Below, piece after piece: positions 26,997 through 45,921 of a DNA stretch of 64,000 nt. The DNA is taken from positions 434,001-498,000 of the forward strand of contig NZ_LKBA01000019.1 of assembly GCF_001307765.1 (NCBI RefSeq), written 5' to 3'. The notes under the pieces are model-generated. The model ran no database searches. It was given only the letters and a program-made list of their open reading frames with translations, and was not told the DNA's origin. The stretch is from Aliiroseovarius crassostreae. Lineage in GTDB: Bacteria > Pseudomonadota > Alphaproteobacteria > Rhodobacterales > Rhodobacteraceae. The position numbers and the translations under genes are program-made. Each line of letters opens with the position of its first letter. The stretch's first letter is position 1.

Positions 26997-28982
26997 TCAT
27001 CGCCCCAACGCCATCATCACAATCATCTCATGGCACAGATAGGCGGTGGCGAGGATCTGCGCGGGGGGCTGATCCTGACGCAACCGATCAAGCGCATCCG
27101 CCAATAGCAGAAACTGACGCGCCTCAGCTCCGCGGGCCAGATAGGCCAGATGATCGGGCTGCAGATGCCTGCATTGTTCGGCGAGATGGCTGAGCACCTG
27201 GGCCGCAAACCCGCTGTCATGGGGTGCAATCTCGGTTCCCCGCAAATGTTTCAACCCGCGCAGCAGACCGCCTTTGGCGCGTGTCAGGATCCCGCCTTCG
27301 GGTGCAGGTTGAAAATCGAGATTGGTGGCGGTCAGCCCCGATCCATCCGGTCGCAGCAGCGCCACCGGTTCATGTAGCAGTTCGTCCCCGATAAGAGTGG
27401 TCACAATCAACAGTGCCACCGCGCCGGGAAACTGCAGATGCAGATGGGTCAGGTGATCCATGTCCTGCGGGCGGGCCGAAAGCTCGACCACATCGCCGGA
27501 CAGATCCTGTGCCCGCCAGCGATAGCGCTGGCTGATATCGTCAAAATACGGCTCTTCAATGCGTGAAGGGGCGATCAGTGCAGGCAGGGGGGACGCGCCC
27601 CGTCGAAGCCCCTGTCCGACCCGGCTGCGCAGGGTTGCGCGCAATGCGCCCCAGTCCTTTATGCAGGTGTCATGATCTTGTAGGCGGGCAGGGGACAGGG
27701 GACCATTGACCTGCGCTGTTATCTTATCCGCCGTTGACAGCTGCCCGTCCGGGGACAGATGCGGGTGTTCCAGCGAGACCACATTCCCGGTCAGGCCTGG
27801 CACAGAGGGTGCCCCCCAGAACGGGTTGGCATAGGCGCGGGCTGGTGTGAAACCGGCATCCATTCCGGCGCCACGCGCCATGGTGGCGGGGTGGAATTCA
27901 CTTGTCTTGGGGTCCAGAAGATACAGGGTCAGGCCACGTGCGCCATTGGGGCTTGTCCACCCTTTCGCCCCCAAAGCCCAAAGATCCATCGGTGGGGCAG
28001 GGGCATAGCTTCGGCGCAGCACCCCCAGAAGGGCGGGATCGTCAGGCGTCTGTGCCAGTGCCTTGACCAGCGCATAGGCCTGCGCCAATGCCGCCAGATA
28101 CCGCCCGCCTTCAAAGCGGATATCACCAGCCTCTGCCCAGCCCGACAGGGTCGACAGGGTCAAAAGCTGTCCGGTCAGGCGCGGGGCGGCCTGCACCTTG
28201 GCGGATATTGCCAAATCAAGAAACCGTTCCTGCGCCAGTTGGGCAGACCCATGAAAGACCTGCGAAATCGCGGCCTCAAGTGCCGTGGCGATCTCAGTCA
28301 GCATAGGTTGATCAGGTCCGGTCAAATCCGGTTTGGAGGACGGGGTATCGATCCCCCCTCTTGCCACCCCGGCCCTATCGCGAATGGCAATGGCCCCTGC
28401 GGCCACCACCAAACGTTTGCGGGTGGCAGGCCCCTTGTAAAGCGCGGCAGAGAGCGTTTGCCCGGCCACAAATGTCACCGAAGCCTCTGGTGTGGCAAAA
28501 CTGACCTGTGCATTTTGCCCGCGGTCTTCGATCCGGGCGGATCCGGCCAACATCATTGCCCCGTCCAGATCGGCCCCCGCAAATCTCTGCAGGACATCCG
28601 CTTTCAGCGCCACCAGCCCCTCCGTAGCGGTGGCCGTAGCTGTGGCGGCAGGCGGCATTTCGGGTGTGGGGACCTTCTCCTTTAGGCCGTCTTCTGACGG
28701 CGTGGCAGCAGGGGCGTCTGAAGGTACTTCCCGCAACACCAGCATGGCCGTCAGGATATGGCTGCACATACCGGGGGCGGGGCAGTCACATGTGGCGGAT
28801 TGCGGCCCCGCCGCAGGGATCGTCACGCTCTGCCCACTGATGGTCAGATCCGCGCCATCTGCATCATAGCGCAGCACCTCTGCCTCGCCTGTGGCCTTGA
28901 TTGCGCGACGCAAAAGCCCCTTATTGGCCAGTGCCACCAGTGCGGCATCATCAAAAGAGGCAATCAGATCTGGCAGGCTCAT
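26997..28982 (-). CDS. SWIM zinc-finger protein (YehQ-like)
   Basis: This is a 661-residue cytoplasmic protein. The SWIM finger CDCPAPGMCSH (C-x-C-x5-C-x-H, near residue 88) is typical of SWIM domains, which bind DNA or protein. The rest has no domain I recognise. The ATG at 28982 overlaps the VWA stop as ATGA and begins MSLPDLIASFDD; an upstream ATG is less likely. It is the last gene of the five-gene minus-strand operon, at the same place as the SWIM protein YehQ in the E. coli yehI-L-M-P-Q set. Its molecular role is unknown. Confidence 0.82.
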   Translation of the reverse strand: MSLPDLIASFDDAALVALANKGLLRRAIKATGEAEVLRYDADGADLTISGQSVTIPAAGPQSATCDCPAPGMCSHILTAMLVLREVPSDAPAATPSEDGLKEKVPTPEMPPAATATATATEGLVALKADVLQRFAGADLDGAMMLAGSARIEDRGQNAQVSFATPEASVTFVAGQTLSAALYKGPATRKRLVVAAGAIAIRDRAGVARGGIDTPSSKPDLTGPDQPMLTEIATALEAAISQVFHGSAQLAQERFLDLAISAKVQAAPRLTGQLLTLSTLSGWAEAGDIRFEGGRYLAALAQAYALVKALAQTPDDPALLGVLRRSYAPAPPMDLWALGAKGWTSPNGARGLTLYLLDPKTSEFHPATMARGAGMDAGFTPARAYANPFWGAPSVPGLTGNVVSLEHPHLSPDGQLSTADKITAQVNGPLSPARLQDHDTCIKDWGALRATLRSRVGQGLRRGASPLPALIAPSRIEEPYFDDISQRYRWRAQDLSGDVVELSARPQDMDHLTHLHLQFPGAVALLIVTTLIGDELLHEPVALLRPDGSGLTATNLDFQPAPEGGILTRAKGGLLRGLKHLRGTEIAPHDSGFAAQVLSHLAEQCRHLQPDHLAYLARGAEARQFLLLADALDRLRQDQPPAQILATAYLCHEMIVMMALGR

Positions 28983-30106
28983 CGCATCACCTCTGCCAAC
29001 CACATCGCCAGCCGGTCCGGGGTCATTGCGCCGATTTTCATCCCCAGCCCCGCAAGACGCCCGGCAATCTGCTTGTCCATATAGGGATCCCCCAGATCAT
29101 CCAGCGCCGACAGGCCAATCATCCGCACCTTTGCCTCGTTCATCCGTGCCACGGAGCGATAGAGTCGGCGCGGGCTGGCGCCTTCGGCAAAGTCCGAGAT
29201 CAGAACAAAAACGGTGCGCTCGGGTGTATCCACGAAGCGTTCGCAATATTCCACAGCACGGCCGATATCGGTGCCGCCCCCCAGTTGCACCGACAAAAGC
29301 GTTTCCAGCGGATCAGTCAGCCGGTCGGTGACATCAAGGATCGAGGTGTCAAACAGCACCATCGACACGTTCACACCGGGAAGGCCGGACAGGATCGCCG
29401 CCATGACCGCAGAATGGATGATGCTGTCGGTCATCGATCCCGACTGGTCCACGCACAGCACCACCGACCAGGGAAGGTGTCGCCGTTCCCGCGCGATGAA
29501 ACGCAGATCATCGGCAATGATCCGGCCGCTTTCCGGATCGTAATTCTTCAGGTTGCGCCGCAGGGTGCCGCGCCAGTCGAAATTCGCAGCCGAGGCCACA
29601 TGGGACCGTTTGAACGGGTTGCGCCGCCCGGAAAAGGCTCGTTGCACATCCGATTTCAACCGACGCAGGATGTCTTGAATGACCGCGTCTGCCACCTGCC
29701 GCAGCTTGTCTTTCATCTCGGGCTTGGCGCGGCCATGGAAACTGAGCAGGGTTTTCAGCAGGTCCTGATTGGGTTCCAGACTGTCCAGCGTCTTTGGGTC
29801 GTCCAGCAGATCGGACAAGCCGTAGCGATCCAAGGCGTGGTCCTGCATCACCTCAAACACCGATTGCGGAAAGAGTTTGCGCGCCTCCCCCAGCCAGTCC
29901 AGTGCCTTCATTTGGGTCGGATCAAGTGATCCCGGACCGGACGGGCGGTGTAAGCCGCGTTTCTCGTATTCGCGACCATAAAGATAATCGAGCGCCCGGT
30001 CTGCGCGTATGTCAGACCCTGCCAGCCCACCCATCTGCCGTTCGGCATAGCGGCCAAGGGCAAGGCGCCAGCGGCGTTTGGCGTGATTGGGATCGCGCTC
30101 GCTCAT
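28979..30106 (-). CDS. VWA-domain protein (YehP-like)
   Basis: This is a 375-residue protein with a C-terminal von Willebrand A domain. The MIDAS motif is intact (VVLCVDQSGSMTDSII, near residue 203, with D-x-S-x-S), as is the threonine/aspartate segment (VSMVLFDTSILDVTDR). VWA proteins next to MoxR ATPases form chelatase-like pairs that insert metals or remodel other proteins. The N-terminal half is basic and helical (RRWRLALGRYAERQMGG). The start at 30106 overlaps the DUF5682 stop by four bases. No signal peptide is present, so it acts in the cytoplasm. Confidence 0.88.
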   Translation of the reverse strand: MSERDPNHAKRRWRLALGRYAERQMGGLAGSDIRADRALDYLYGREYEKRGLHRPSGPGSLDPTQMKALDWLGEARKLFPQSVFEVMQDHALDRYGLSDLLDDPKTLDSLEPNQDLLKTLLSFHGRAKPEMKDKLRQVADAVIQDILRRLKSDVQRAFSGRRNPFKRSHVASAANFDWRGTLRRNLKNYDPESGRIIADDLRFIARERRHLPWSVVLCVDQSGSMTDSIIHSAVMAAILSGLPGVNVSMVLFDTSILDVTDRLTDPLETLLSVQLGGGTDIGRAVEYCERFVDTPERTVFVLISDFAEGASPRRLYRSVARMNEAKVRMIGLSALDDLGDPYMDKQIAGRLAGLGMKIGAMTPDRLAMWLAEVMR

Positions 30107-32508
30107 GTCGTGCCTCCGATGATCCAATCCATCAGCCCGTCTTCCCGAAGGGCCGCGCGCAGGGCGGCATCAATCTGCGCCCCCTTTGCGGCCTCGCGCG
30201 CGTCCACATCGTGATGATGTGCGGTAAACTCTCCCACTGTGCCGCCATGGCGACGGGTCAGGGCAGCGGCCACCTGATCCGCTTCACGCGGAGAAAGGGC
30301 GGACAGGGCCAGTCGCAGATGGGGCAGCACCTCCAGAAAGCCGTCATCTTCCAGACCGGTCAGAAAATCATCCAACGCGCCCAACATGCCTTCGACTGTC
30401 CACAGCAGGGATGGAGCAACCGCCAGAACGCCCCGCAACCCGGCAAGCCGCGTGGGCAGATCAGGGGCGCTGCCGGTCAATTGCGCGACGATAAGATCGG
30501 GCAGGGTATGATCCGGTTTGCGCCCGCTTTCCACCGCGATGGCGGTGATGGCACCCAGAAGTTCCGGGGCGGGGTCCGCCTCTGCCACCCGGTCCAGCGC
30601 ATCTTCAAACCGTTCGGCGTCAAAGTGTTTGCCCCCCGGACCGCGCATCAGTTCGGACAACAGGCGCAGCGCGTCCAGACAGGGCGGGATCGCCTCTTCG
30701 CGCATCTTTGGCAGGTCATCACACAGATAAATCATGCGCGAGAAAGCCTGTTGCATGGTGGGGGCAATCGCCAGCCCCTCAGGCAGTGACAGCGGCCCGC
30801 GAGAGGCTTCGATTGCGTGCAGTTCCACCATTGCACTAGCGGCATCGGGAAAATCCGCTGATCGGGTGATCGCCCCGGATATTTCGCTCAGAAACCCGGT
30901 CAGATCCGTGCCCAACCCTGCCAGAAGCCCCTTCTTGAACAGCGTGATCAACGCCGACAGATCATCGGCCCGTCCTTCATCCGCCAGCGCAATGCGGAGG
31001 GCATTGAGCTTGCCCAGGCAGGCGGCAGGCAATGTGTCACCATGGATTGCAGCCTCGATCAACTGCCCTTCGACACGGGGCGACCAGGCATAGTCCCAAT
31101 GTTCAAACAACAGCCCGGTCTGCACGGCGTTCAGGAAGTCCGGCCCGCCTTGCCGTGTGGCAAACCCCGTGTCCAGCAGCGCCATCGCATGGGCAAAACG
31201 CGAGGCGGCGAGATGGGCGGGTTTGCGGCGAATATCCAGGCTACGCTCGCGCCGTTGCCCGTCGGTGACGTCAAAGCGGTGACGCCGGGCGCGGGCGCGG
31301 GCATCTGCCACAATCGGTGGCTGGCCCGCCGCGTCGCTGACCTCGCCCAGGGCATGGCCACGCAGGAACAGGGTAAAACGTTCGCGCCAGACATCTGCCC
31401 CGCTGGCCTCACCTTTCAAAAGTGAGGAGGTCAGCCCGTCAAAAAGGTCGTGCCGCAACGCACCCGGGTGGCCCCGCAGCCGGGCCAGCGTTTCTGCCAT
31501 GCGCAGAAGCTCGACCTGGGCGGGCACGGGGATGCCATTCCCTGCCGCCCGCATGTCAGATGCGAAATCTGCGACAATCTCATGGGCGAGGGCAGGCCAG
31601 TTGGGAATTGTCCCACAGGCCTCAGCGTGATCCCACAGCGTTTGATAATAAGCGGGCTGTGGCAGGCCCGCGCCATATCCCATCAGCGCGTCGAGCTCCT
31701 TATACCCATAGCGGATCAGGTAAGAGGCTGCATTGGATTTGCCACCTGCCTTGGTCTTGCCAGCCGTTTCGGACGGAGACAAAAGAGGCCCGGTGTGAAA
31801 CCCGCCGATCACGCAGACAACCGGGCCGTTTGCGACCCCTTCAGCTAGGGCGTCACGCAGGCAGGCGGCCATATGGGCCTCGCGCGCCGGGTCTTCGCCG
31901 CTGGTAATTTCCTCTTCCGGGGTGGCGGCACGCAAGGCGGCGCAATAGGCGCCCACATCCCCCAAAAACTTGCGCCAGTTGGCTTCGCCCATCCGGGTTT
32001 CAAACAGGTGGTCCCAAAGCTCATCCCCATCGCGACAGCCAAGCCGGTCACAAAGCGCGCGCACGTAGTCACCGCTGTCAAACCCCTGTTCACGCACAAG
32101 CGCGCGCGGGCCGGTCTGATTATCACTTTCCCCGGCCATCTTGGCGTCTGACCCAAGGTCGATAAACCGCAAATTCGCGCCAACCGCCGCCCCTTCGCGC
32201 AGGGCCACCCATTCGGGGGAGTGGGCGCAGAACGGGTAATACGCTGCCAGCCGGGGGCCGTTTTTTTGATCCAGCAGACTGGCCGCCGCCACGGGGGGCA
32301 CGGTGTCCGGATCCAGCAGATGTGGGATCAGATGGGACAGATCATGGGGGGCTTCGATCAGCACATGTGATGGTTTCAGCTCGCGGATCATGGCCCGCAC
32401 CGCCCAGGCGCAGGCGGGCGAATGGTGACGGATCGGGGCCAGATACAGCCCGGTTTCCGGCTGAAAGAGCCGGTTATGCACCTGATGGATCAGCGCCTCA
32501 TCCCGCAT
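30103..32508 (-). CDS. DUF5682-family protein (YehM-like)
   Basis: This is an 801-residue soluble protein. The N-terminal LAPIRHHSPACAWAVRAMI followed by HVLIEAPHDL has the His-x-x-S and Glu placement seen in EreA/ChaN/TraB-type folds. That comparison is my inference; the name DUF5682 comes from the family's overall pattern. A second block, VCVIGGFHTGPLL (about residue 230), also contains a conserved-looking histidine. The ATG at 32508 is chosen; a GTG six bases upstream (32514) is also possible. It sits between the MoxR ATPase and the VWA gene, as YehM does in E. coli, so it is probably the substrate or catalytic partner of that pair. Confidence 0.8.
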   Translation of the reverse strand: MRDEALIHQVHNRLFQPETGLYLAPIRHHSPACAWAVRAMIRELKPSHVLIEAPHDLSHLIPHLLDPDTVPPVAAASLLDQKNGPRLAAYYPFCAHSPEWVALREGAAVGANLRFIDLGSDAKMAGESDNQTGPRALVREQGFDSGDYVRALCDRLGCRDGDELWDHLFETRMGEANWRKFLGDVGAYCAALRAATPEEEITSGEDPAREAHMAACLRDALAEGVANGPVVCVIGGFHTGPLLSPSETAGKTKAGGKSNAASYLIRYGYKELDALMGYGAGLPQPAYYQTLWDHAEACGTIPNWPALAHEIVADFASDMRAAGNGIPVPAQVELLRMAETLARLRGHPGALRHDLFDGLTSSLLKGEASGADVWRERFTLFLRGHALGEVSDAAGQPPIVADARARARRHRFDVTDGQRRERSLDIRRKPAHLAASRFAHAMALLDTGFATRQGGPDFLNAVQTGLLFEHWDYAWSPRVEGQLIEAAIHGDTLPAACLGKLNALRIALADEGRADDLSALITLFKKGLLAGLGTDLTGFLSEISGAITRSADFPDAASAMVELHAIEASRGPLSLPEGLAIAPTMQQAFSRMIYLCDDLPKMREEAIPPCLDALRLLSELMRGPGGKHFDAERFEDALDRVAEADPAPELLGAITAIAVESGRKPDHTLPDLIVAQLTGSAPDLPTRLAGLRGVLAVAPSLLWTVEGMLGALDDFLTGLEDDGFLEVLPHLRLALSALSPREADQVAAALTRRHGGTVGEFTAHHHDVDAREAAKGAQIDAALRAALREDGLMDWIIGGTT

Positions 32509-32540
32509 GCTCACCCCACACGGTCGCCGTGGATCGTCCG

Positions 32541-33635
32541 TCAGCCATCATCCTTGGCGGCCTTGTGAAACGCAGCCCATGCGCGGCTTTTGCGGCCCCG
32601 TGCGCGGGCAATGGTATCGACATAGGCGCGCAGTTTGCGGGCATCGTCAGCATCATCCTTGAACACCACGCCACGCAATTGCCGCGCCACATGGGCACCT
32701 GTCGGGGCCTCTCCTGACAGGTAACTGGCGTCGAGCAGCGCGCCGTGGGCCACATTCACCGCCTCTGCCGTCGACATGACAGATTTGGGCTGCGCCACCA
32801 CCGCGCCGTCTTCGGCCCGCCCGGTGCGCAGGTCCCGAAAGACCGACACCACCACGTCGAGCACATCTTCGGGCAGATCCGCCTTCAGGTCATATTCCGC
32901 CATCCGTTCGCCCACCTGCCGGGCAATCAGCTCTTTCTCAAAGGCGGCATCAGCGATCGGGGCCACGGTTTCAAAATTGAACCGTCGTTTGAGCGCGCTG
33001 GACATTTCGTTCACGCCGAGGTCCCGCAGGTTGGCGGTGGCAATCACGTTGAAGCCGCGTTCTGCCCGCACCTCACGCCCTGCACCCAACTCGGGCATGG
33101 CCACGGTTTTTTCCGACAGGAGCGAGATCATCGCATCCTGTACTTCGGGGGCGCAACGGGTCAGTTCCTCGATCCGGGCGATCTGGCCGCCTCGCATGGC
33201 GGTCAGCACGGGCGAGGGGATCAGGGCACGGTCGCTAGGCCCTTCGGCCAGCAGCAGCGCATAATTCCAGCCATAACGCAGGTGGTCTTCGATCACCCCG
33301 GCGCTGCCCTGCACCACCAGTCGTGAATTGCCGCTGATGGCGGCGGCGAGGAGTTCGGACAAAAGCGATTTGGCGGTGCCCGGTTCGCCCACCAGCATCA
33401 GTCCCTGATGCCCCATCAGGGCCACAATGCAACGGTCCACCAACGGGTCGTCGCCGTAAAACTTGCGGCTGACCTCCAGCCCCTTGTCGCCCAGGATAAA
33501 CCGGCGCACCGCGCGGGGGGACAGCGCCCATCCTGCGGGTTTCGGATCCTGATCGGCCGCGCGCAGGCGGGCAAGCTCTGCCGCGTAGCGCATTTCGGCG
33601 GGCAGTTTCTGAACGGTATCTGCAGTTACATCCAT
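32541..33635 (-). CDS. MoxR-type AAA ATPase (YehL-like)
   Basis: This is a 364-residue AAA+ ATPase. Walker A is GEPGTAKSLL (about residues 84-93); Walker B and sensor 1 lie in GGQIARIEELTRCAPEVQ and FNVIATANLRDLG, where the usual DE is replaced by EE in a MoxR-type arrangement. An arginine finger region follows (SSALKRRFNFETV). MoxR ATPases work with VWA partners in chelatase-like remodelling. The gene overlaps the end of the DUF4132 gene by ten bases and precedes the DUF5682 gene by 32 bases, so it is in one operon with both. Confidence 0.9.
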   Translation of the reverse strand: MDVTADTVQKLPAEMRYAAELARLRAADQDPKPAGWALSPRAVRRFILGDKGLEVSRKFYGDDPLVDRCIVALMGHQGLMLVGEPGTAKSLLSELLAAAISGNSRLVVQGSAGVIEDHLRYGWNYALLLAEGPSDRALIPSPVLTAMRGGQIARIEELTRCAPEVQDAMISLLSEKTVAMPELGAGREVRAERGFNVIATANLRDLGVNEMSSALKRRFNFETVAPIADAAFEKELIARQVGERMAEYDLKADLPEDVLDVVVSVFRDLRTGRAEDGAVVAQPKSVMSTAEAVNVAHGALLDASYLSGEAPTGAHVARQLRGVVFKDDADDARKLRAYVDTIARARGRKSRAWAAFHKAAKDDG

Positions 33636-36600
33636 GGCATTTTCTTTTCCCAGTTGGGATCAAAACTGCCCTTGGCAACCATGTCCCGGTAATCATTCCA
33701 ACATTCCGACAAAAGCACCGGTGGCACCTCGGACAGGGGCACTGCGCGCCCGCGGCGCCCGGCACCGTGCAGCTTGGCAAATTCCAGGTGGATCTGCGCG
33801 GCGGCGACGTTTTCTTCCGGCAGGCAGTTGCCGGAAAATTCGATCACCGCACAAAGGCCCGCGCTGCGGAAGGTCTTGATATATTCGTTGAAATAGCCGC
33901 CATCCAGCGCTTCGCCACGTTCATATCCCAGCTTGGTGCTGGCGCCCCGGAAGCTGAACGTGTCGGTGATCCAGCCCTTGCGATCCTCGATCCGGGTCTC
34001 TTTGCCCATCTCGCCGTCCAGCGCCAGAAGCGGGCGGCCAAACTGGGCGAAGAGCGGCTTGACCTCGTAATCGACCAGATGAGTAGCCCAGGCCTTTGCC
34101 GCGTTATCAGACAGAAGCGCGCCATGGGCGAGGCGGATGGTGGTGAAGCTGTCTGGCGTCACCTCGTTGTCATCCGCATCCACATAATCGCCTTCGGCAG
34201 TGGGGCGGAAGGCGGTGACGATCTTGCCATCGGCATCTTCACCGAGCCAGATCACCCGTTCGGTCAGCCGCCCCATCAGGGGATGATTACGGAAATCGCG
34301 CATCCAATCCGCCACCGGCCAGCATCGCTCGGCGCAAAGGGCTTCGTAAAGCCGTTCCCCTTGCAGGGTGATCACCTGTTTCAACTCGCGTTTCGAGACC
34401 GAAAGCTGTTTCTTGCTGGTCTTTGTGTTGTCATCATCCCCGGCTGGCAGACCTTTGATCTGCTTGCCATCCGGGTTCAGCACCACCAGCTTGAACTCAT
34501 CATCCAACCGGGCGGAATAGGGTTTTTCCTCTTCCCCGATTGGCAATTCCAGCACGCCGTCATCATTCAGCCCAGCGGTGGGAATGGTGCGGTCGGCCAG
34601 CTCATCCATCGACCAGTCGCGCGCTTCTGCGACCGCTTCGATCAGCTTGCCCGCATGAGCCTGCACACCTTTTTGCTTCAATCGCGTGGCGGCGGAAATC
34701 ACGATCTGCAGAGAGAGCGGATCGCCCTTCGCGGCCAGAACCTCCAGCAGGGACGAGGCCTGAGATGTGCGTGACCCATGCTGTTTGAGGTAATTGCGCA
34801 CCGAAGCGGCCGCATGGGCCGGATCCACATGTTTGGTCAGCGCCAGCACGCCTTTGGTGGCTGCGCCTGAGTTCAGATACTGGGTTTTAATGCTGTTATA
34901 TAGACCGCGATAGGCCTGTTCTCGGGTATAGCTCTTGTCCCAACGCAGATAGGTTTTCCAGTTCTGATCCGCATGCTGTTCGGCATAGGCATTGGCTTCA
35001 TCATCGCCTGGACGCACCGTGTCATAGTTGATCCAGGCGTCAAAAATCCAGGTCGACAGGGTCTTGGCGCTGTCGGGGGCAAGCTGCGTCAGATAGATGT
35101 CAAAAAGCGTGTTGCCGCCCGGTTGCTTGAGCTTGTTGGCAAGGAAGATCCAAGCCTTGATCACCTTTGCCGGCACCTTTTGCCCACCTTTGTATTTCAA
35201 GTCGGGCAGGTGGTCGCTGACCAACCAGTCCAGCTTGTCGAACTTGGCTTTTTTCAGGATCACCTCTGCCTCGGTCATCAGCGCCTTGGGGCCGACATAA
35301 TCGGACAGTTCCACCCCCAGACGGGAGAGTGCGGTGAGGATTGCCGCTTTGGCCAGATCGGATTTTTCCTTTTTCAGGCGCGCTTTGAGGGGCTTCACCG
35401 CCTCCTTGATGCCAAGATCCGCCAGCCATTCGGCGGCCCCGGCGCGCACGTCCTGCCTTGTGTCGTTGAGCAGCGCAATGGCGCGCTCTTCCAAACCCTG
35501 CGCCCCTTCCAGCATCGCGCGGGCCTCGGCCCGGCCGGATTTGGTGGTGCCGGTTGCGACCTCCAGCAGCGGGCCGTAATAGCGTTGTGGCGTCTTTGGC
35601 AAAAGCTGCAGGAACTGGATCGCGCGCAGTTTGCGCGGTGCGGGTTCACCGGCGGCGCGCAGGCCAAATGCCTCGTCAAACACGTCGAAACTTTCAGCCA
35701 ATAGCGGCCAGAGCGCGTCGCGGTTGAGGTCCATCACATCATAATTGCCCCATTCGCGCCCCAGCTCACCTCGGATCAGATCGCCGGGCACTGCCTTGCG
35801 GGTCTTGCGATTGTTCCACGGGCCGGACTGGATTTGGCCCATTTCCACATTCAGGGTTTCGAGATTGCGATAATCCGCCTCCTCGCTGTTTACGTAACGC
35901 ACCAGCCTGCTTTGAACGGCGCCCCATTCATTCAGGTGAAAGGCCGCATAGAAATTCCGTTCGGTGGCGGTGAAAAATCGCAAGGCGCGGTCGGGTGACA
36001 TGCGCGAGAGGGCGTCAAGCGTCCATTTGTCCCGCGCGGTGAAATTCAGAAACTGCCACAGCCTTGTGTGCCCCTTGCGATCCAGATCTGCGCCGGTGCC
36101 GTTGAACAGTTTGATAATCTGTGTGGCCATGGCGGGCTTCAGGCGTGGCTCAACAAAGTTGTATTTGCCCTTGCGCGCCTCGTTGCGGCGATCAATCTCG
36201 ATATTTTCCTTGGTGATAATGTCCAGAAGTTTCTTTTCATCCTCGACGCCAAAGGTGACATCCGGTTCCTTGGAAAGTGGGGTCAGGGGAGGGATCTCAA
36301 CCCGGCTGCCATCCAGCGCCAGATAGGACATGCGGTCGCCCTCATCCTCCTCATCCGCCTGCGAGACCTCCTCGACCGTCAGCGCGCTTTCAATCGCGGC
36401 TTTGATCCGGGCGGTTTTTTCGGATTTGAGGTGATCGCGCAACAGGGCAAATCCCGCGTCGGACCGTAGACCCGCCAGCAGATCAACCATGGCTGCGCGG
36501 ATGGTGGCGGCCCCTGTGTCAAGCTTGTCTTTGGCGATGGGAAGGATTTGATCCTGGGGCAGGGTCATCATGGCCTGCACGGCTTCGTGGCGCACGGATT

Positions 36601-37180
36601 TTGCGCTGTCGGCGCTCATGTCGACCAGAAATGCGCGTGCCTCCGGGTCGGAGAACATCTCCCATTTGCGCATCTGCGCAATCAAGAGCACCTTGCCACC
36701 CGCGCCCATACGGCGGCCTGCCGCCAGCAGATCCTGCTGATGGCTGCGCGCCAGTGGGGCAAAGTCGAAAACCTCGGTCAAGCGGCGAATATCATCACTG
36801 CTGCGCCAGCGCCCGTCGTCATTATAAAGGATATCAAACAGGTCTTCGGCGCTGCCTCCGGCGGCCTCGCAAATTTCGACACAAAACTCTGGGGTGAGCA
36901 CACAGAGCGTGGCGTCGATGACTTGCCTCGGCCATGAGTTCAAAGTTTTCACCAAGCCAGCCCCGGCTTTTGTAAAGAGGATACGCAGGGGGAGTGAAAC
37001 GTGTTTCGACCCGGCTAAATAGTCCTTCTCGCCACCACTTGCAGCGGCCAGCACTTCACCATAGCGGGCCAGAACAGAGGCATCTTGGGCCTGTCGCGCC
37101 AGAAAACGCCTGCGGGCCTTATCGCCGGGTTCGTCGGAATAATTGCTATCAAGTATCAAGCCCAAGGATTTTGGAGGCAT
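33626..37180 (-). CDS. DUF4132/HEAT-repeat protein (YehI/MolR-like), main frame
   Basis: This is 1184 residues in one open frame. Armadillo/HEAT-like repeats (VRHEAVQAMMTLPQDQILPI, IRAAMVDLLAGLRSDAGF, RAGAAEWLADLGIKEAVKPL) fill the N-terminal and middle regions, and the C-terminal 400 residues form a DUF4132-type domain (from RELKQVITLQGERLY to WEKKMPWM). It is the first gene of the operon with MoxR, DUF5682, VWA and SWIM. The ATG at 37180 has no ribosome site. The real start is probably the GTG at 37346, but a 7-bp tandem duplication at 37147-37160 puts the two parts out of frame. Without it the protein would be 1237 residues, close to E. coli YehI. Confidence 0.82.
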   Translation of the reverse strand: MPPKSLGLILDSNYSDEPGDKARRRFLARQAQDASVLARYGEVLAAASGGEKDYLAGSKHVSLPLRILFTKAGAGLVKTLNSWPRQVIDATLCVLTPEFCVEICEAAGGSAEDLFDILYNDDGRWRSSDDIRRLTEVFDFAPLARSHQQDLLAAGRRMGAGGKVLLIAQMRKWEMFSDPEARAFLVDMSADSAKSVRHEAVQAMMTLPQDQILPIAKDKLDTGAATIRAAMVDLLAGLRSDAGFALLRDHLKSEKTARIKAAIESALTVEEVSQADEEDEGDRMSYLALDGSRVEIPPLTPLSKEPDVTFGVEDEKKLLDIITKENIEIDRRNEARKGKYNFVEPRLKPAMATQIIKLFNGTGADLDRKGHTRLWQFLNFTARDKWTLDALSRMSPDRALRFFTATERNFYAAFHLNEWGAVQSRLVRYVNSEEADYRNLETLNVEMGQIQSGPWNNRKTRKAVPGDLIRGELGREWGNYDVMDLNRDALWPLLAESFDVFDEAFGLRAAGEPAPRKLRAIQFLQLLPKTPQRYYGPLLEVATGTTKSGRAEARAMLEGAQGLEERAIALLNDTRQDVRAGAAEWLADLGIKEAVKPLKARLKKEKSDLAKAAILTALSRLGVELSDYVGPKALMTEAEVILKKAKFDKLDWLVSDHLPDLKYKGGQKVPAKVIKAWIFLANKLKQPGGNTLFDIYLTQLAPDSAKTLSTWIFDAWINYDTVRPGDDEANAYAEQHADQNWKTYLRWDKSYTREQAYRGLYNSIKTQYLNSGAATKGVLALTKHVDPAHAAASVRNYLKQHGSRTSQASSLLEVLAAKGDPLSLQIVISAATRLKQKGVQAHAGKLIEAVAEARDWSMDELADRTIPTAGLNDDGVLELPIGEEEKPYSARLDDEFKLVVLNPDGKQIKGLPAGDDDNTKTSKKQLSVSKRELKQVITLQGERLYEALCAERCWPVADWMRDFRNHPLMGRLTERVIWLGEDADGKIVTAFRPTAEGDYVDADDNEVTPDSFTTIRLAHGALLSDNAAKAWATHLVDYEVKPLFAQFGRPLLALDGEMGKETRIEDRKGWITDTFSFRGASTKLGYERGEALDGGYFNEYIKTFRSAGLCAVIEFSGNCLPEENVAAAQIHLEFAKLHGAGRRGRAVPLSEVPPVLLSECWNDYRDMVAKGSFDPNWEKKMPWM
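37147..37160. repeat. Perfect 7-bp tandem duplication disrupting the DUF4132 frame
   Basis: TATCAAG occurs twice in tandem (37147-37153 and 37154-37160); on the coding strand this is CTTGATACTTGATA. Seven bases is not a multiple of three, so the extra copy creates a +1 shift. Deleting one copy restores a continuous frame from GTG 37346 to the DUF4132 stop. Confidence 0.9.
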
Positions 37181-37346
37181 CTACATTGGCGAGCGTTGAC
37201 AGCACACTGCCACCTTTGTCCTTGAGCACATAGGCGATCGCCTTGTCCCCCAACCCGCGCTCAACCGCATGCAATCGCTGCAGGTCCTTGGAAATTGCAT
37301 TGGAAACTTTTGGGATATTAAAAAGATTGGAGATAATTCCACGCAC
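37149..37346 (-). pseudogene. Out-of-frame N-terminal 65 codons of the DUF4132 gene
   Basis: This 65-residue frame (MRGIISNLFNIPKVSNAISK to LANVDASKILGLDT) starts at GTG 37346 behind an AGGAAAG ribosome site six bases away, and stops at TGA 37149. Its stop falls 31 bases inside the downstream frame's overlap. Removing one copy of the CTTGATA duplication (minus strand) joins GLD directly to SNYSDEPGDK in the main DUF4132 frame, a smooth protein junction. I therefore read it as the broken N-terminus, though phase variation or frameshifting would also fit. Confidence 0.75.
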
Positions 37347-37568
37347 TGGCTTTCCTCACAAACGACTAATCAACTCTTAAATCGTTAACGCAATGACGGG
37401 CACAACCCAAGATTAAATTGGAATCGGAGATGGGCTTCTGCCGGGGGACTTGGCGTTCCGAATTTCTGAGTTTCTCGAATTTGTGACATTCTAATCAAGG
37501 AGTGTCGACGTTCAGGCTTCTCACGTGGCATGAGTTCTGCTTCAAGGTTGCAAACAGAAGAGAGGGGT

Positions 37569-38317
37569 CTTGCCCGACGAGCCCTGACCAACGCCCATTG
37601 GGCGATCATCGCCCCCTTCTGCCTTGGCAAGCACACTGATCCCGGCCAGACCAGAGGCGATCCGCGGTTATTCATGGAAGAGGTTTGGTAGAGTGTGAGG
37701 ACAGGCGCGCAATGGTGTGAATTGTCTGCCGGGTTCTGGCGCTTCAAACGCGTCCAGCCTGGCCCAAAACCAATGTATTTTACAATATGCTCAGAGCGTT
37801 ATCTTCTGCTCCCGATTTCAAGTACGCGATGATCGATGGCTCTGTCGTTAAGGCCCACCGCTCAGGCCAGGGCGCCAAAGGGGACGCTCAGCCAGGCCAT
37901 AGGGCGCTTACGCGGCGATTGCCCAAGCATCTGCCTGAGATCGACGAGGTTACCCAAACCGTCAGTCAGCGCCAATATTTTGGTGGTGATACCGCCTGAC
38001 CGGCGCGCCGTGCCGGATTTGATCGAGCACTCTGTGCCGACTGCGCTTTCGATGCCGACTGGCTGCGGTCTGCTCTCGATAAGCTGGACATACCCCCTGC
38101 CATTCCTCTGAAATCGAACCGGCGTTTCCCCGCAACCTTCGACAAGGAAACATACAAATGGCGGCCCCTGATCGAGATTTCCTTCGGGAAACTTAAGAAA
38201 AACTGGGGCATTGCGCTGCGGTCATGCAAAACAGATCAGAGCTTCGCCGCCTTCATCTCACGTACAGCAACCATCCTTCACGCCAGGAGAACGTCAACAG
38301 GGGCTAGAAAATATTAG
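37569..38317 (+). pseudogene. Decayed IS5-family transposase
   Basis: Pieces in several frames match one IS5-type transposase in the right order: LARRALTNAHWAIIAPFCLG at 37569, RLFMEEVW then an in-frame TAG, AMIDGSVVKAHRSGQGAKG from about 37826, SQAIGRLR, then after a gap AFDADWLRSALDKLDIPPA and KSNRRFPATFDKETYKW, and finally RSCKTDQSFAAFISRTATIL ending near 38317. Frameshifts and stop codons make it dead. The missing middle is present on the other strand (37914-37996). It lies between the DUF4132 operon and rpsB. I could not define the terminal inverted repeats. Confidence 0.85.
37914..37996 (-). other. Inverted 83-bp segment inside the IS5 remnant
   Basis: The reverse complement of these 83 bases encodes TTKILALTDGLGNLVDLRQ, the conserved IS5 segment missing from the plus-strand reading. 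Turning it back gives an unbroken frame over both junctions (SQAIGRLR-GGITTK and LGQS-PDRRAVPDLI). The ends carry GGCG and CGCC, a 4-bp inverted repeat at which the inversion may have occurred. Confidence 0.8.
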
Positions 38318-38364: not shown

Positions 38365-38447
38365 TTGCCACCTGTCAATTCCCCCTATATACGCGCGCCT
38401 GTTAATCCACAGGCGGAATGCGGGCCTATGGGGGAGACATCCCCATA
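38365..38447 (+). promoter_or_regulatory. Possible rpsB promoter and leader hairpin
   Basis: TTGCCA (38365) and TATATA (38386) are a plausible -35/-10 pair with a short 15-base spacer. The leader then contains a hairpin, TATGGGG (38427-38433) with CCCCATA (38441-38447), about 80 bases before the rpsB ATG. Ribosomal protein S2 is known to autoregulate in E. coli through its leader; whether that applies here is untested. Confidence 0.4.
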
Positions 38448-38528
38448 ACGTCCACCGGTTGAGGGCTCCGAAAACCAACGGACCTTCGAAACATTTCGCC
38501 GAGGTTGAAACCGGAAAAGGAAAAGAAC

Positions 38529-39311
38529 ATGGCACTGCCTGATTTCACTCTCCGTCAGCTGCTCGAAGCTGGCGTACACTTTGGTCACCAAACTCAGCGT
38601 TGGAACCCCCGTATGGGCCCGTTCATCTATGGTGAGCGCAACGGGATCCACATCCTCGACCTGACCCAAACCGTCCCGATGCTGGATGCCGCACTGAACG
38701 CCGTGCGTGAAACCGTTGCAAAAGGTGGCCGGGTTCTGTTCGTCGGCACCAAGCGTCAGGCGTCGAAAGCAGTTGCTGACGCAGCTGAGCGTTCGGCACA
38801 GTATTACATGAACCACCGCTGGCTCGGTGGCACGCTGACCAACTGGCAGACCGTGTCGAAATCGATCCAGCGTCTGAAAGAATTTGACGAGAAACTTGCG
38901 TCGGGCGCGGAAGGCCTGACCAAGAAAGAGCGTCTGGGCATGGAGCGCGAGCAGGCCAAACTGCAGGCCTCGCTGGGCGGCATCCGCGAAATGGGCGGTG
39001 TTCCGGATCTTCTGTTTGTCATCGACGTGAAAAAAGAATCGCTGGCGATTGCCGAAGCCAACAAGCTGGGCATCCCGGTTGTGGCCGTTGTCGACACCAA
39101 CTGCCCGCCGGAAGGTGTGGATTACATCATCCCGGGCAATGACGACGCAGCGCGCGCAATCGCTCTTTACACCGACCTGGCTGCCCGCGCAGCTCTGGAC
39201 GGCATGTCGGCCCAGATGGGTGCAGCAGGTATCGACCTGGGCGAGCTGGAAGACGGCATGACCGAAGAAGCCGTGGCTGAAGAAGCCACCGCCGAGGCCG
39301 CTGACGCCTAA
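38529..39311 (+). CDS. rpsB: Ribosomal protein S2
   Basis: This is a 260-residue small-subunit protein. The start [20 protein letters not shown] and the conserved [30 protein letters not shown] and [12 protein letters not shown] segments are all present. The acidic C-terminal tail ([16 protein letters not shown]) is a usual alphaproteobacterial extension. The ATG at 38529 follows GGAAAAGGAAAAGAAC. It forms the classical rpsB-tsf pair with the next gene, 124 bases downstream. Confidence 0.98.
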
Positions 39312-39435
39312 GCACGATTGGAAGACGGGCAGGGGACACCCTGCCTGTCTCATCGTTTGGCATCCAAGACTGATGTCACAGAATTGATACCGGCTTGGGC
39401 TAGGACCCGGCCGAAGATCCTCAAGGAGAGTTAAG

Positions 39436-40311
39436 ATGGCAATCACTGCTGCACTCGTAAAAGAACTGCGCGAATCCACCGGCGTTGGCATGATGGACGC
39501 GAAAAAAGCCCTGGTCGAAAACGACGGTGACATGGAAGCCGCTCAGGACTGGCTGCGCACCAAGGGTCTGGCCAAAGCCGCCAAGAAGGCCGACCGGACC
39601 GCTGCTGAAGGCCTGGTGGCCGTGGCTGTGGACGGTGGCAAAGGTGTTGCCGTTGAAGTGAACTCGGAAACCGACTTTGTCGCCAAGAACGCTGAATTCC
39701 AAACCATGGTTTCCGGCATTGCAGGTGCTGCGCTGAACGCAGCAGATCTGGAGGCGCTGAAAGCTGCTGATCTGGGGGGCAAATCTGTCGCTGATATCAT
39801 CACCGACAAGATCGCCACCATCGGCGAAAACATGTCGCTGCGTCGCATGGCATCGGTCGAAGGTGATGTCGTGGCCTCCTATGTCCACAACGCTGCTGCG
39901 GACGGCATGGGCAAAATCGGTGTTCTGGTTGCGCTGAAAGGTGGCGACGAAGCATTCGGCAAGCAGGTTGCCATGCACATTGCGGCCGCCAACCCGCAGG
40001 CGCTGAACGAAGCTGAGCTGGACGCTGCTGTTGTTGAAAAAGAACGCACCATCCTGACTGAGCAAGCCCGTGAAAGCGGCAAGCCCGAAAACATCATTGA
40101 AAACATGATCAAGGGTCGGATGAAGAAGTTCCTCGCCGAGGTGACCCTGGTGGGCCAGGATTTCGTTCTGAACCCCGACGTCACTGTTGAGCAGGCTGCC
40201 AAGGATGCAGGTGCTGAAATCGTCGGTTATGTCCGTATGGAAGTTGGCGACGGTATCGAAAAAGAAGAAACCGACTTTGCTGCTGAGGTTGCTGCTGCCG
40301 TAAAGGGCTAA
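39436..40311 (+). CDS. tsf: Elongation factor Ts
   Basis: This is a 291-residue guanine-nucleotide exchange factor that recycles EF-Tu. The N-terminal domain ([20 protein letters not shown] with the conserved TGVGMMDCKKAL-type motif, cysteine replaced by alanine as is common) and the [12 protein letters not shown] core motif are present. An AAGGAGAG ribosome site precedes the ATG. It ends 41 bases before an intrinsic terminator and converges on the orphan LRR-like gene. Confidence 0.98.
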
Positions 40312-40351
40312 GCCGGCGCAAGGGCAGGGTATCTGCTAAGAAAATAGAAAA

Positions 40352-40376
40352 GGGGTCGGTCACCCGGCCCCTTTTT
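40352..40376 (+). terminator. tsf terminator
   Basis: GGGGTCGG (40352-40359) and CCGGCCCC (40364-40371) form an 8-bp stem with one G-T pair and a four-base loop, followed by TTTTT. It is 40 bases past the tsf stop. Confidence 0.9.
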
Positions 40377-40402
40377 CATGCCGGGCGGAACGGGATACCC
40401 GG

Positions 40403-40461
40403 CCACTAAAGCGTTTCGGAATCAACTTGTGTCTCAAGTTAATCTCGAAACGCTTTAGTGG
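40403..40461. repeat. Best-preserved palindromic intergenic repeat unit
   Basis: CCACTAAAGCGTTTCG (from 40403) pairs with CGAAACGCTTTAGTGG (ending 40461), a 16-bp outer stem. An inner stem, AACTTG with CAAGTT, brackets TGTCT. This is the clearest copy of the family and can serve as its consensus. Confidence 0.88.
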
Positions 40462-40470
40462 AAAAGAAAC

Positions 40471-40499
40471 GCGGCGCTGACGGGGAATGTCAGCGCCGC
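40471..40499. terminator. Strong 11-bp hairpin after tsf
   Basis: GCGGCGCTGAC (40471-40481) and GTCAGCGCCGC (40489-40499) form a perfect stem with a seven-base loop. There is no T-run on the plus strand (it is followed by AAAC), but on the minus strand it is followed by GTTTC. It could serve transcripts coming from the opposite direction. Confidence 0.5.
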
Positions 40500-40940
40500 A
40501 AACATACCGCGGGACAGCGGTGATGCTATTCTGGGTAAGAGGGCGTCTGGTGCCTCCGGTAAAAATCCTCCTTCGACACCAGCCCTCGGTTTCCCGAAAG
40601 AATGAAACATTTGCTGAAATTACAGCGCGTCCACCCCTCTATGTTCCAAAGGCTAAAGCCACCACTCACGGAACGTGTTCAATATCGGAATTTTAGGATC
40701 ATTTTAAAAGTCCGGTATTCCTTACCGTAATTTTACGTATAGGCCCAACTGGACCGAGCGTGCAAAAGTGGCCAAAAATCAGAACAATATAAGAACTTGC
40801 AAAAGTAACCGACCTTCGCCGCGCCGTGCGTGAACTAGTAAGATGCGGACAAAAAAGCCATTCCCCTCGCTTCCCCTAATGTCTGGTTTGGCGAACCGTT
40901 CAACATTCGCTGATTTTTGGAAAGATTTGTACAGTTGCAG
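40500..40940. other. Gene-free stretch, start of the accessory region
   Basis: No gene is supported in these 441 bases. Base composition becomes visibly richer in A and T after about 40600 compared with tsf. A short plus-strand open frame (40487-40696) has no ribosome site or recognisable product. The promoter and leader of no neighbour lies here, since the LRR-like gene ends at its right side. Confidence 0.5.
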
Positions 40941-41696
40941 CTATTGGTAAGCTGGCGGTGGATTTTCTCCTAGCCAAGTCATCCAATGAACCCAAACATC
41001 CACACCGTTGTTCTTTAATGTTTCAAACAGGTCATTTTGGCGATGTCCGATACTACGCACATCGCGATACAGATCGTTACCGACAAGTTCGACGGAGCGA
41101 AGAGTTGGCATGGCCAAAAGAGCCTCGGTGTTTGAAACGGGTACGCCGCCTTCAATCACTTCCAACTTATCAAAGCCCGCTAACAGATTTAGATCGAGTT
41201 CGGGGATCATCGATGAAGCTTCAAAAACCCGTAGGTTTCGCAAATGTTGAAGTCCCTCAAAGCTCGATATGTCGAAGTCTTCCGTCTCACCATCCCAAGT
41301 CGGACTTACGTAGAAATAGATTTCTAGGCCTCCATCAAAGGATAACGTTTCCACCTCATCGAGAAGGCTCTGGCCGAGGGGATATCGGGCGAGGTAATCA
41401 TACGCCGGTTGAATTATTCCAAACCCAAGGTCCCATGGATCGGACACAGGTTGGTCTAGGACCCAAGACAGGAAATCAGAGCTTTCCCCTAAATCGATGT
41501 GCCCTTCCTCAAGAAGCGATGACAGCACCACAAGTTTTAAGTTTGGATCAGCAAATGGCGCTCCAGTTTCACCGCGAGGCTCCGGGTAGGATTGAGCGGT
41601 CGCAGTCTGCGAAAGTGCGGCCGCGCCAATTGCTATCGCGCCACTCCATGCCTGCAAACCTTTCAAAATGCCAACGCCCCCCAATTTTCTTTCCAT
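40941..41696 (-). CDS. Orphan secreted protein with leucine-rich-like repeats
   Basis: This is a 251-residue protein. A probable signal peptide (LQAWSGAIAIGAAALSQTATAQ, cut near residue 35) precedes an acidic region. From about residue 140 there are repeats of leucine-rich type (FEGLQHLRNLRVFEASS, LNLLAGFDKLEVIEGG, ALLAMPTLRSVELVGND). This predicts a periplasmic or secreted binding protein. I do not recognise the N-terminal part. It has no operon partners and lies in more A/T-rich DNA than its neighbours, consistent with horizontal acquisition. The start at 41696 is the first good ATG, with GAGATGG upstream. Confidence 0.65.
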   Translation of the reverse strand: MERKLGGVGILKGLQAWSGAIAIGAAALSQTATAQSYPEPRGETGAPFADPNLKLVVLSSLLEEGHIDLGESSDFLSWVLDQPVSDPWDLGFGIIQPAYDYLARYPLGQSLLDEVETLSFDGGLEIYFYVSPTWDGETEDFDISSFEGLQHLRNLRVFEASSMIPELDLNLLAGFDKLEVIEGGVPVSNTEALLAMPTLRSVELVGNDLYRDVRSIGHRQNDLFETLKNNGVDVWVHWMTWLGENPPPAYQ

Positions 41697-42583: not shown

Positions 42584-44641
42584 TCACGCCGCTTGTCGTC
42601 CAAAGTCGATCCGCTTGTCCAAATCCACATCAAACCGCCCGTAGGGATTGATGTGCGAATAGATCAATGGGGAGAGACCACGGTAATCGCGCTCAGACAG
42701 GCGGTTTGCCCAGGTCGGCTCCGACAGCACCGATTGCACCATACGAGTATTCACATAAACGAGGGATGCCTGAAGCAAATGCAGCGCATGCGCTGAGATT
42801 TCCTGATCGGCAATCCGGTTGCTGGAAATCTCGCCGCCCTTGCCGAAGAAGATAAAGCCGTTGGCGCTGTTCCAGTTCTCAACCACATTCAGGCCCTCAT
42901 GGATTTCGCGGCGGAACGTCTCGGATCGGAGATAACGACACAGGAAGATTGTTTTGATTGCCTGGCCGAGTTCAGCAAGTGCCTTGTAGGTTGGGTGCAT
43001 GACATCAGCACGCGCAAAGCAGCGGAGAATGGCTTCCGGGTCCGCAGTGCCGTGCTGCATGGCCGCAGCGTATTTGACCATCTCATCATATTGCCGCTCA
43101 ATCTCATTCCAATCGATCGTACCTGACAGGATTGGCAATAGGTTTGGAAGCTTCGCCCGCATGCCAGCGCTCGGCAGGGCCAGCTTCTGTTCGGCGATCG
43201 CTTTCAGCCGTGGGGCAAGCTCAAAGCCGAGAAGGTGACAGAATGCAAACCCAATTGCGCTTTGGCCATGGCTGTCCACATATTGGCGCTGGATCTCCAT
43301 GTCCGTGCAATGACGCAGCACACCTTCGATCATGGATGCCACTTCAGACGATGAACAGCGCTTCAGCTGAGAATAGATACAGGTCGCTTGCTGCGCGACA
43401 TGCCAATAGATCATCACCCCACGCCCGCCATAGCGGGCGTGCCATTCCGTCATCAGATTTCGGTCCCAGGCCCCGAACTTGGTGGAGTCTGATGCACAGG
43501 CCGTGCCTGCCTCGCCCCAGACGCTGGGATTGCGGATGGCAAGGGTGGCATCTGCAACGCGCGCGGCCGCGGCACGCAGAGAGGCTGGGTCAATATAGCG
43601 CCGTCGAATGTGCAACAGCTCGTCATAACTGGTCCCGGGCACCCCAGCAGCAACACGCTTCAAACCCGCATTTGTACCCAGACCATATAAGGAGAGCAGC
43701 AAACGTTGATCCCGAATGTCGGCTGGCAACGCCTCTCTGGTCGCGGAGGTCTCAAAGGCATCAAGAAAGCCCGTGTCTAGCGCCGTTTCCTTCAACGTAT
43801 CCAACAGTCCCGCCATGGGCCATCGCCGATTGACCTCGGATTTGAGGCCAATCAGACCCTTGGGCTCAGGGGCTGGTTTGAAGGGCGTGATGCTGATCCG
43901 GTTGTCACCCGACCAGCGCAAGCGGACCATGTCATTGTCAGGTAGCGTGACATTCAGCTCTAGAAGCTCCTGTTCTACTTGCGTGCGAACGGACTGGCTA
44001 AATGCCTGTGCGTCCTGAGTGAGGTTCAGCCCGCTGTAATAGGCCGCGCGTTTCTCGGGAAAATCCTTTGGTAGATCATTGTCCGGATTACGATGACGAT
44101 CCGCACCCTCGATCCAGATTTCCTTTGCCCGAATCCGCTCTCGTAATTGGGTCAGGATACAGAGCTCATAAGATATGAGATTCATCCGGCCTCGTTCATC
44201 CAACACAGTTGCACACCATTTGCTCGGGATCGATCCTTCTGGAGCGAGAGAGGCCGGTGCAGTGCGACGCCCTTCTTCGTTGAGGCGGGCAATCAGAGCC
44301 AAGGCATCAAGGATCGGTCGCCATGTCTCATTGTTCGACCTAAATCTCAGAACGGATAGTAAGGAAGGCAGCATCGGGCGATAGTGACTGGCATAGGATC
44401 CCCGCATCACCGTCTGGATCTGAACATTGAGCGTACCCTTAGCATTGTGCTCATCAATGATGGCCTTCAGCTTGGATGCACCTGCGATGGGAAAGATGAC
44501 ATCCGACACCTTGCCATTCGGCGCCATCATCGCCGCCGTCGCGATATCCACCAGCAATTGTTCCTTGCCGTGTACCTTGTTTATGTCTGCGGCAATTCTA
44601 CTAATCACCTTGGTTTTTGATCGCGTATCAATGCGATGCAC
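42584..44641 (-). CDS. tnpA: Tn3-family transposase, missing its N-terminal third
   Basis: This is 685 residues, against about 990 for intact Tn3-family transposases. The frame begins inside the family's middle region ([39 protein letters not shown]) and runs to the normal C-terminus ([20 protein letters not shown]). The catalytic DDE part looks intact: [26 protein letters not shown] and [14 protein letters not shown]. The missing N-terminus makes activity unlikely. A 5' scrap lies just upstream (44666-44905), with an internal deletion between. The assigned start at 44641 is simply the first codon of the open frame. Confidence 0.85.
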
Positions 44642-45918: not shown

Positions 45919-45921
45919 GGG

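Follow-up and report, generated by a model that had tools for sequence, protein, structure and literature searches.

MoxR ATPases are believed to act in the maturation or activation of dedicated complexes, and YehL constitutes one of the seven subfamilies into which they are divided (PMC3893208). The same paper describes RavA–ViaA of Escherichia coli, in which a MoxR ATPase and a VWA protein are encoded as an operon (PMC3893208). RavA–ViaA belongs to a MoxR subfamily separate from YehL. To our knowledge, it has no DUF5682, SWIM or DUF4132 partner. In midasin (Rea1), a giant eukaryotic protein of ribosome maturation, an AAA ring is coupled within one chain to a MIDAS domain and pulls the substrates held by that domain. 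In this study, we analysed a stretch of 64,000 nucleotides (the window) from the 3.72 Mb genome of Aliiroseovarius crassostreae (contig NZ_LKBA01000019.1), the minus strand of which carries a five-gene operon that combines a YehL-like MoxR ATPase and a VWA protein with DUF5682, SWIM and DUF4132 proteins. Because the YehL subfamily and the operon have already been named, the window operon adds one more copy to a system that is known but uncharacterised, and is here compared with its relatives. The N-terminal 250 or so residues of its DUF5682 protein are very probably akin to the Tiki superfamily, and MoxR, DUF5682, VWA and SWIM form the constant part of a widespread set.

The open reading frames (ORFs) follow one another on the minus strand between 26997 and 37180 and, by the ORF list and Pfam matches, encode a DUF4132 protein with HEAT repeats (33626–37180; YehI-like), a MoxR-type AAA+ ATPase (32541–33635; YehL-like, 364 residues, AAA_5 E = 2e-33), a DUF5682 protein (30103–32514; YehM-like, approximately 803 residues, PF18934 E = 6.6e-104), a CoxE-like VWA protein (28979–30106; YehP-like, 375 residues from ATG, VWA_CoxE E = 8.1e-48) and a SWIM-type zinc-finger protein (26997–28982; YehQ-like, 661 residues from ATG). 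The DUF4132 and MoxR genes overlap by ten bases (33626–33635) and, with ATG starts assumed, DUF5682 and VWA overlap by four (30103–30106), as do VWA and SWIM (28979–28982). At the remaining junction, 26 bases separate MoxR from a GTG start of DUF5682 at 32514, or 32 bases from an ATG at 32508 that may serve instead. The original prediction of a minus-strand operon in which three of the four junctions between five genes overlap, by 10, 4 and 4 bases, is thus borne out by the ORFs and Pfam. Its proposed equivalence to E. coli yehI-L-M-P-Q, in set and in order, agrees both with the annotated E. coli record CP088875 (DUF4132, a hypothetical gene, yehL, yehM, yehP and yehQ, with yehI annotated there merely as a DUF4132 protein) and with gene order across loci. 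All five families stand in the window in the E. coli order, and the Walker A, MIDAS and SWIM residues are intact. Unlike the window, E. coli has the hypothetical gene preceding yehL, an additional WGR-DUF4132 gene upstream and a SWIM protein (YehQ, L004:13382–15382) with two SWIM stretches, whereas in the window not all five genes are open over their full length, a frameshift having left a DUF4132 ORF of 1184 residues.

TraB, ChaN and erythromycin esterase (Ere) belong to the same Tiki superfamily. The region of DUF5682 that resembles them spans approximately residues 25–245 (31780–32442, minus strand) and contains R29, H30, H31, E54, R211, G237 and H240, which are invariant in the window protein and in seven plasmid-encoded DUF5682 sequences found without a motif condition. 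Profile–profile comparison (hhalign) of the DUF5682 N-terminus gave a score of 32.1 (E = 0.001) with TraB and 35.2 (E = 2.5e-4) with ChaN, beside 42.2 for the known pair TraB–ChaN; the maxima over 100 column shuffles each were 21.4 (TraB) and 20.9 (ChaN), and the C-terminal half of DUF5682 reached 15.2 and 15.8, respectively. The profiles were built from 18 of 20 TraB and 23 of 25 ChaN loci, the remainder being partial. With three TraB sequences the E value was 0.0057, and with 20, several of them on the wrong strand, it was 0.018, four unrelated families of the operon scoring 12.8–19.3 in that comparison. H30, E54, R211 and H240 align with the G[TE]xH motif, the second Glu, the R..MA motif and the G..H motif, so that the motifs of the superfamily (TraB/PrgY, ChaN, erythromycin esterase) lie in register with the DUF5682 N-terminus. 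A Pfam scan of 53 DUF5682 N-terminal regions (E ≤ 1) points the same way: ChaN was matched by 13 (best E = 0.0013), TraB/PrgY/gumN by eight (best E = 1.7e-5) and erythromycin esterase by two (best E = 0.079). In the 20 members that were read singly, nine of the ten Tiki matches end on or near the stretch of the second His at the matching place in the model, and the tenth covers that of the first His.

Several observations weigh against this kinship, or against a hydrolytic function built upon it. The hhalign probabilities are just 21% (TraB) and 43% (ChaN), and a search of the PDB with the DUF5682 profile returned no Tiki protein among six sequences up to E = 10, the best being a phosphoglycerate mutase (E = 0.023). 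None of the 20 members read singly has a Tiki match at the Pfam cut-off (best TraB match 0.01), and in the scan of 53 the unrelated ssDNA-exonuc_C was matched by three (best E = 0.0089), beside other single chance matches. A reverse search of 190 genomes with the DUF5682 profile yielded, besides two true DUF5682 genes, two weak matches only (E = 0.003 and 0.05). The same seven residues are kept in 75 of 75 sequences of a larger set, a count biased for RHH because the genome-scan pattern contained RHH, which leaves the seven plasmid sequences beside the window as the unconditioned evidence. Members of the superfamily carry a 2His/2Glu motif, and a His–Glu pair activates water, ChaN and the Ere family being named there (PMC6254334). 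In DUF5682 the His, Glu and His are present and the first Glu is replaced by Val, Ile or Met (49, 24 and two of 75). The TraB sequences compared here likewise lack the first Glu, 17 of the 18 having Thr or Ser at that position. DUF5682 further differs from the superfamily in its approximately 500 additional residues and in its tie to MoxR and VWA. The profile similarity to TraB, ChaN and Ere over the domain has moderate statistics; given the low hhalign probabilities and no Tiki protein in the PDB search, we regard kinship as very probable and catalysis as less likely.

To collect relatives of the operon, genomes were scanned with an alignment of DUF5682 proteins, and the best 80 of 578 confirmed loci were taken, so that the counts describe the nearer relatives; 50 of these 80, flanked on each side by 8 kb or more, are the basis of the counts of content and order. 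Besides the window, alignment A2 comprises 74 of the 80 loci (L038, L062, L064, L070, L074 and L082 being left out), and alignment A3 comprises 44 of the 80 together with eight plasmid loci. Among the matches listed, the closest DUF5682 relatives are from Thalassococcus (78% identity) and Pelagimonas (76%). By record title the loci belong to Pseudomonadota, Verrucomicrobiota, Planctomycetota, Acidobacteriota, Bacillota, Actinomycetota, Spirochaetota and Armatimonadota, to which plasmid records add Deinococcota and Bacteroidota; conservation had been claimed across alpha- and gammaproteobacteria and extends well beyond them. In the 50 loci with full flanks, DUF5682 is accompanied by MoxR in 48, VWA in 48, SWIM in 47, DUF4132 in 46 and DUF5691 in one, and the families thus co-occur as predicted. 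By domain position, 45 loci have the order MoxR-DUF5682-VWA-SWIM, and DUF4132 lies directly upstream of these genes in 29 and downstream in 15; ordering by frame start instead gives 43, 27 and 15. The exceptions in order are L024 and L027 (VWA-SWIM-DUF4132-MoxR-DUF5682) and L080, which is of the DUF5691 type. In the other two exceptions among the 50, L025 and L066, DUF5682 stands alone, with neither MoxR nor VWA in its vicinity, which counts against the machine proposed below.

A second architecture, SWIM-DUF5691-MoxR-DUF5682-VWA, is carried by Rhizobium and Deinococcus plasmids, with variants in Methylosinus and Hymenobacter. It also occurs in the three other DUF5682-bearing genomes of a sample of 289 genomes of the class, with weak matches to both SWIM (38.9–64.9 bits) and DUF5691 (20.5–49.9 bits). 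Since DUF4132 has been moved or is replaced by DUF5691, the constant machine is MoxR, DUF5682, VWA and SWIM, and the long HEAT-type (DUF4132) or DUF5691 protein is exchangeable; the earlier view of the same five genes throughout was too strict. In the class sample, DUF5682 is present in four genomes and DUF4132 in three, the two together in the window genome only and DUF4132 without DUF5682 in two; a strong type-I SWIM profile match was likewise confined to the window genome, with two further short, weak matches. Within the genus, two of 21 genomes have DUF5682. The second copy (G004) lies on a contig other than that of the phoB of its genome and is 75.7% identical to the window over an alignment of 8.6 kb. 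An ORF approximately 2 kb away on its contig matches a phage integrase below the threshold (23.4 bits, cut-off 27.1). The operon is absent within approximately 12 kb after phoB in all five genus members examined. In E. coli, yehM (DUF5682) is found in 5,284 of 5,426 complete genomes, in 5,166 of them over at least 80% of its length. Because the operon is sporadic in class and genus and near-core in E. coli, it appears to move as a unit between lineages and yet to be kept stably in some.

Coupling between the subunits is indicated by natural one-frame fusions of DUF5682 and VWA, one in Streptomyces atratus (L008; a single annotated gene, 1255 residues) and one in a metagenome-assembled genome of Micrococcales (L041). 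At another locus, L007, SWIM is fused to DUF5691. Pairwise distances in the 62 loci with all five proteins are correlated most strongly for DUF5682–MoxR (0.926) and DUF5682–VWA (0.904) and least for SWIM–DUF4132 (0.784); for every pair, none of 500 permutations, which are uncorrected for common descent, reached the observed value. Divergence is least in MoxR and VWA and greatest in SWIM and DUF4132, as would be expected if the latter two faced variable targets. Gene order, the DUF5682–VWA fusions and the correlated divergence all support the one coupled machine of the original prediction, and the fusions together with the two architectures indicate which subunits are core and which exchangeable.

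The functional residues of the other constant subunits are well conserved. The Walker A motif of the MoxR protein, GEPGTAKS (residues 83–90; 33366–33389), recurs as GxPGTAK[ST] in 81 of 81 MoxR frames, and the MIDAS motif of the VWA protein, DQSGS (residues 220–224; 29435–29449), as DxSxS in 81 of 81 VWA frames, both counts including the window twice (also as L001). The MIDAS site is completed by T279 and D305; across the 19 aligned VWA proteins D220, S222, S224 and D305 show no variation and T279 hardly any, and simple patterns for the MIDAS Thr and the second Asp missed four and two of the 81 frames, respectively. SWIM is a zinc-binding motif. The window SWIM protein matches PF04434 below the cut-off (E = 0.033, 14.2 bits against 19.6), and the three Cys and the His of its motif CDCPAPGMCSH (C65, C67, C73 and H75; 28758–28790), of the form CxCx5CxH, are invariant in 18 of 18 aligned proteins. 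The looser CxCx(2-25)CxH is present in 70 of 74 SWIM frames, the exceptions being the partial L003 and L048 and the planctomycetal L020 and L032; at least two CxCx(2-10)CxH motifs occur in 24 of the 74. Among solved structures, the sole matches of the MoxR protein at E ≤ 0.001 are midasins (best 2.6e-9), the ring and the MIDAS domain being here separate small proteins; PDB sequence searches with DUF5682, SWIM, VWA and DUF4132 gave no useful solved relative. In the plasmid copy of Methylosinus trichosporium, the VWA gene (L006:12169–13394) is in three frame pieces and unannotated.

Gene content and order, the fusions, the conserved ATPase, MIDAS and His/Glu residues and the Tiki kinship by profile comparison (moderate statistics) are consistent with a YehL-type MoxR–VWA machine built around a Tiki-fold DUF5682 hydrolase that is pulled on, loaded or gated, with SWIM and HEAT proteins recruiting the target; for this machine we infer complex formation, catalysis, a direction of action among the subunits and a substrate, and give the reading as a whole a probability of approximately 0.45. 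Clients of MoxR ATPases are often encoded next to the MoxR genes, which points to DUF5682 as the client or partner enzyme. In midasin, the MIDAS domain holds an acidic side chain of the target through its metal. In the proposed mechanism, the MoxR ring (gene 2) would turn over ATP and the VWA protein (gene 4) would dock on it, its MIDAS metal holding an acidic side chain of the target in the manner of midasin. DUF5682 (gene 3) would be the dedicated partner, with its N-terminal Tiki domain, conserved His, Glu and His, and long C-terminal part; ATP-driven pulling, metal loading or gating may switch it on as a peptidase- or esterase-like hydrolase, or may feed it substrate. Recruiting and holding the target would fall to gene 5, the SWIM zinc-finger protein, and to gene 1, the HEAT/DUF4132 protein, which DUF5691 replaces in the second architecture. 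It is doubtful whether one may go further, to a new ATP-driven hydrolase in which the MoxR ring and a MIDAS-type VWA adaptor deliver to or gate a Tiki-fold peptidase or esterase, with DUF4132/DUF5691 and SWIM as exchangeable receptors. Were this so, it would be an AAA+-powered protease on a fold unused by Clp, Lon, FtsH or the proteasome, present in nearly every E. coli. The window operon is in any case a copy of a widespread, unstudied bacterial machine carried by nearly all E. coli, and a Tiki assignment with named residues makes the operon amenable to point mutation in a laboratory strain. Searches of the open-access full-text literature, outside which most subscription papers lie, listed no functional study of the yeh operon and no paper that mentions DUF5682; nor did an assignment to Tiki, the fusions or the existence of two architectures appear in what they listed.

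Other functions have been considered for such a gene set. One is insertion of a metal or cofactor, in which MoxR–VWA would act in the way of NorQ/NorD or of the chelatases for magnesium or cobalt, and DUF5682 would be a ChaN-like metal or haem binder and not a hydrolase. This would account for the MoxR–VWA pairing, for ChaN being matched more often than the other two Tiki families and for the zinc-binding SWIM motif. We consider it unlikely, given that none of the five proteins was a large chelatase subunit in the Pfam scan and that the flanking ORF clusters common to at least three loci (692 ORFs from 78 loci) looked generic when judged by sequence, without tool annotation. The resemblance to chelatases of the BchI/BchD type that had been suggested for the MoxR/VWA pair was not supported: the VWA protein scores 15.3 bits against the cobaltochelatase model, the cut-off of which is 779, and there was no other chelatase match (BchI/BchD, CobST) at E ≤ 0.01 in the five proteins. 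A complex for the response to DNA damage seems highly improbable, although SWIM domains occur in recombination factors, DUF4132 genes answer genotoxic stress and DUF4132 can carry a WGR domain, as does the E. coli paralogue (E = 6e-18). Some support comes from E. coli and Deinococcus, and a LexA-like site with one mismatch (L004:358–373) lies just before the start of the E. coli WGR-DUF4132 gene at 383; it is, however, one of ten such matches in that locus against 6.06 expected. No alphaproteobacterial LexA pattern was found near the window operon, nor do the upstream regions of the operons have a LexA or DdrO box in common: four of 89 sources have scattered sites of mixed kind (plain CTG-N10-CAG alone being unlisted), and LexA/SOS and DdrO boxes were accordingly rejected as common elements.

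The MoxR-vWA-VMAP/beta-propeller ternary conflict systems, like the window operon, join MoxR and vWA to further proteins, and a conflict or anti-phage role of similar logic would suit the sporadic occurrence of DUF5682 (four of 289 class genomes, two of 21 in the genus), the different places of the operon in two species and the 35 matching records of a plasmid collection, some of them chromosome-sized, one of which adjoins a type I restriction system. We nevertheless regard such a role as quite improbable, the operon being near-core in E. coli. A weak match of the window MoxR protein to the bpMoxR domain (E = 1.6e-5, 24.5 bits) speaks for such a role but lies below the cut-off of 27, and none of the five proteins matched a VMAP or beta-propeller domain at E ≤ 0.001. 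In PADLOC-DB 2.0.0, four of the five proteins have no match and the fifth has a weak HEAT match (E = 0.0012), which does not place the operon among the known anti-phage systems of that collection. Among 100 flanking proteins scanned of 361 eligible, at most four match any one PADLOC family at 1e-10 (no control set); RtcR-CARF, dGTPase and two PDC candidates each appear once in the flanks, beside housekeeping citrate synthase and EF-Tu. The idea of a defence island was dropped for want of a recurrent defence neighbour in these flanks, again without a control set, and spread by phage likewise, none of seven pattern matches in viral contigs having encoded a relative. SWIM, YehL, TraB, DUF4132 and WGR each have zero occurrences in the main text of PMC7159879.

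In the DUF4132 gene of the window, a seven-base tandem direct repeat close to the 5′ end, CTTGATA twice (37147–37160), shifts the reading frame, so that the original N-terminus, which starts at GTG 37346, no longer reads in frame with the rest. The remaining ORF begins at the internal ATG 37180 and contains the DUF4132 domain (PF13569, E = 5.7e-31, residues 905–1086) and HEAT_2 repeats (best stretch 568–622). The out-of-frame piece (37161–37346) resembles in its frame the N-termini of L010 and L011, and nucleotide similarity to the G004 copy extends to 37337; L010, L011 and the same-genus copy L111 are open across the position of the repeat. The operon is real, as predicted; the GTG at 37346, up to which its span was drawn, is out of frame with the DUF4132 ORF. 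Neither this frameshift nor the Tiki-type domain of DUF5682 had been noticed in the original prediction. Two or more DUF4132 genes are apparent at L013, L019, L062, L071–L074, L079, L083 and L084, as in E. coli, some frames being possibly fragments; multiple genes of this kind beside the operon would fit paralogous target receptors. Homology between DUF5691 and DUF4132 was rejected, the hhalign E value of 0.0068 being too weak for the claim.

Just upstream of the operon, 37385–38280 reads like a broken transposase, an impression only because the two ORFs scanned there (37385–37747 and 37836–38111) have no Pfam match. Further on lie a DUF6892 gene (40941–41696) and, nearby, a Tn3-type transposase (42584–44641; DDE_Tnp_Tn3, E = 4.1e-134). 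In the genus member L146, the phoB of which is 89% identical, phoB is followed by inverted segments that match 45167–46362 and 38378–40674, and nothing between these segments matches the operon or the Tn3 stretch; relative to L146, 38378–46362 is a rearranged insertion site.

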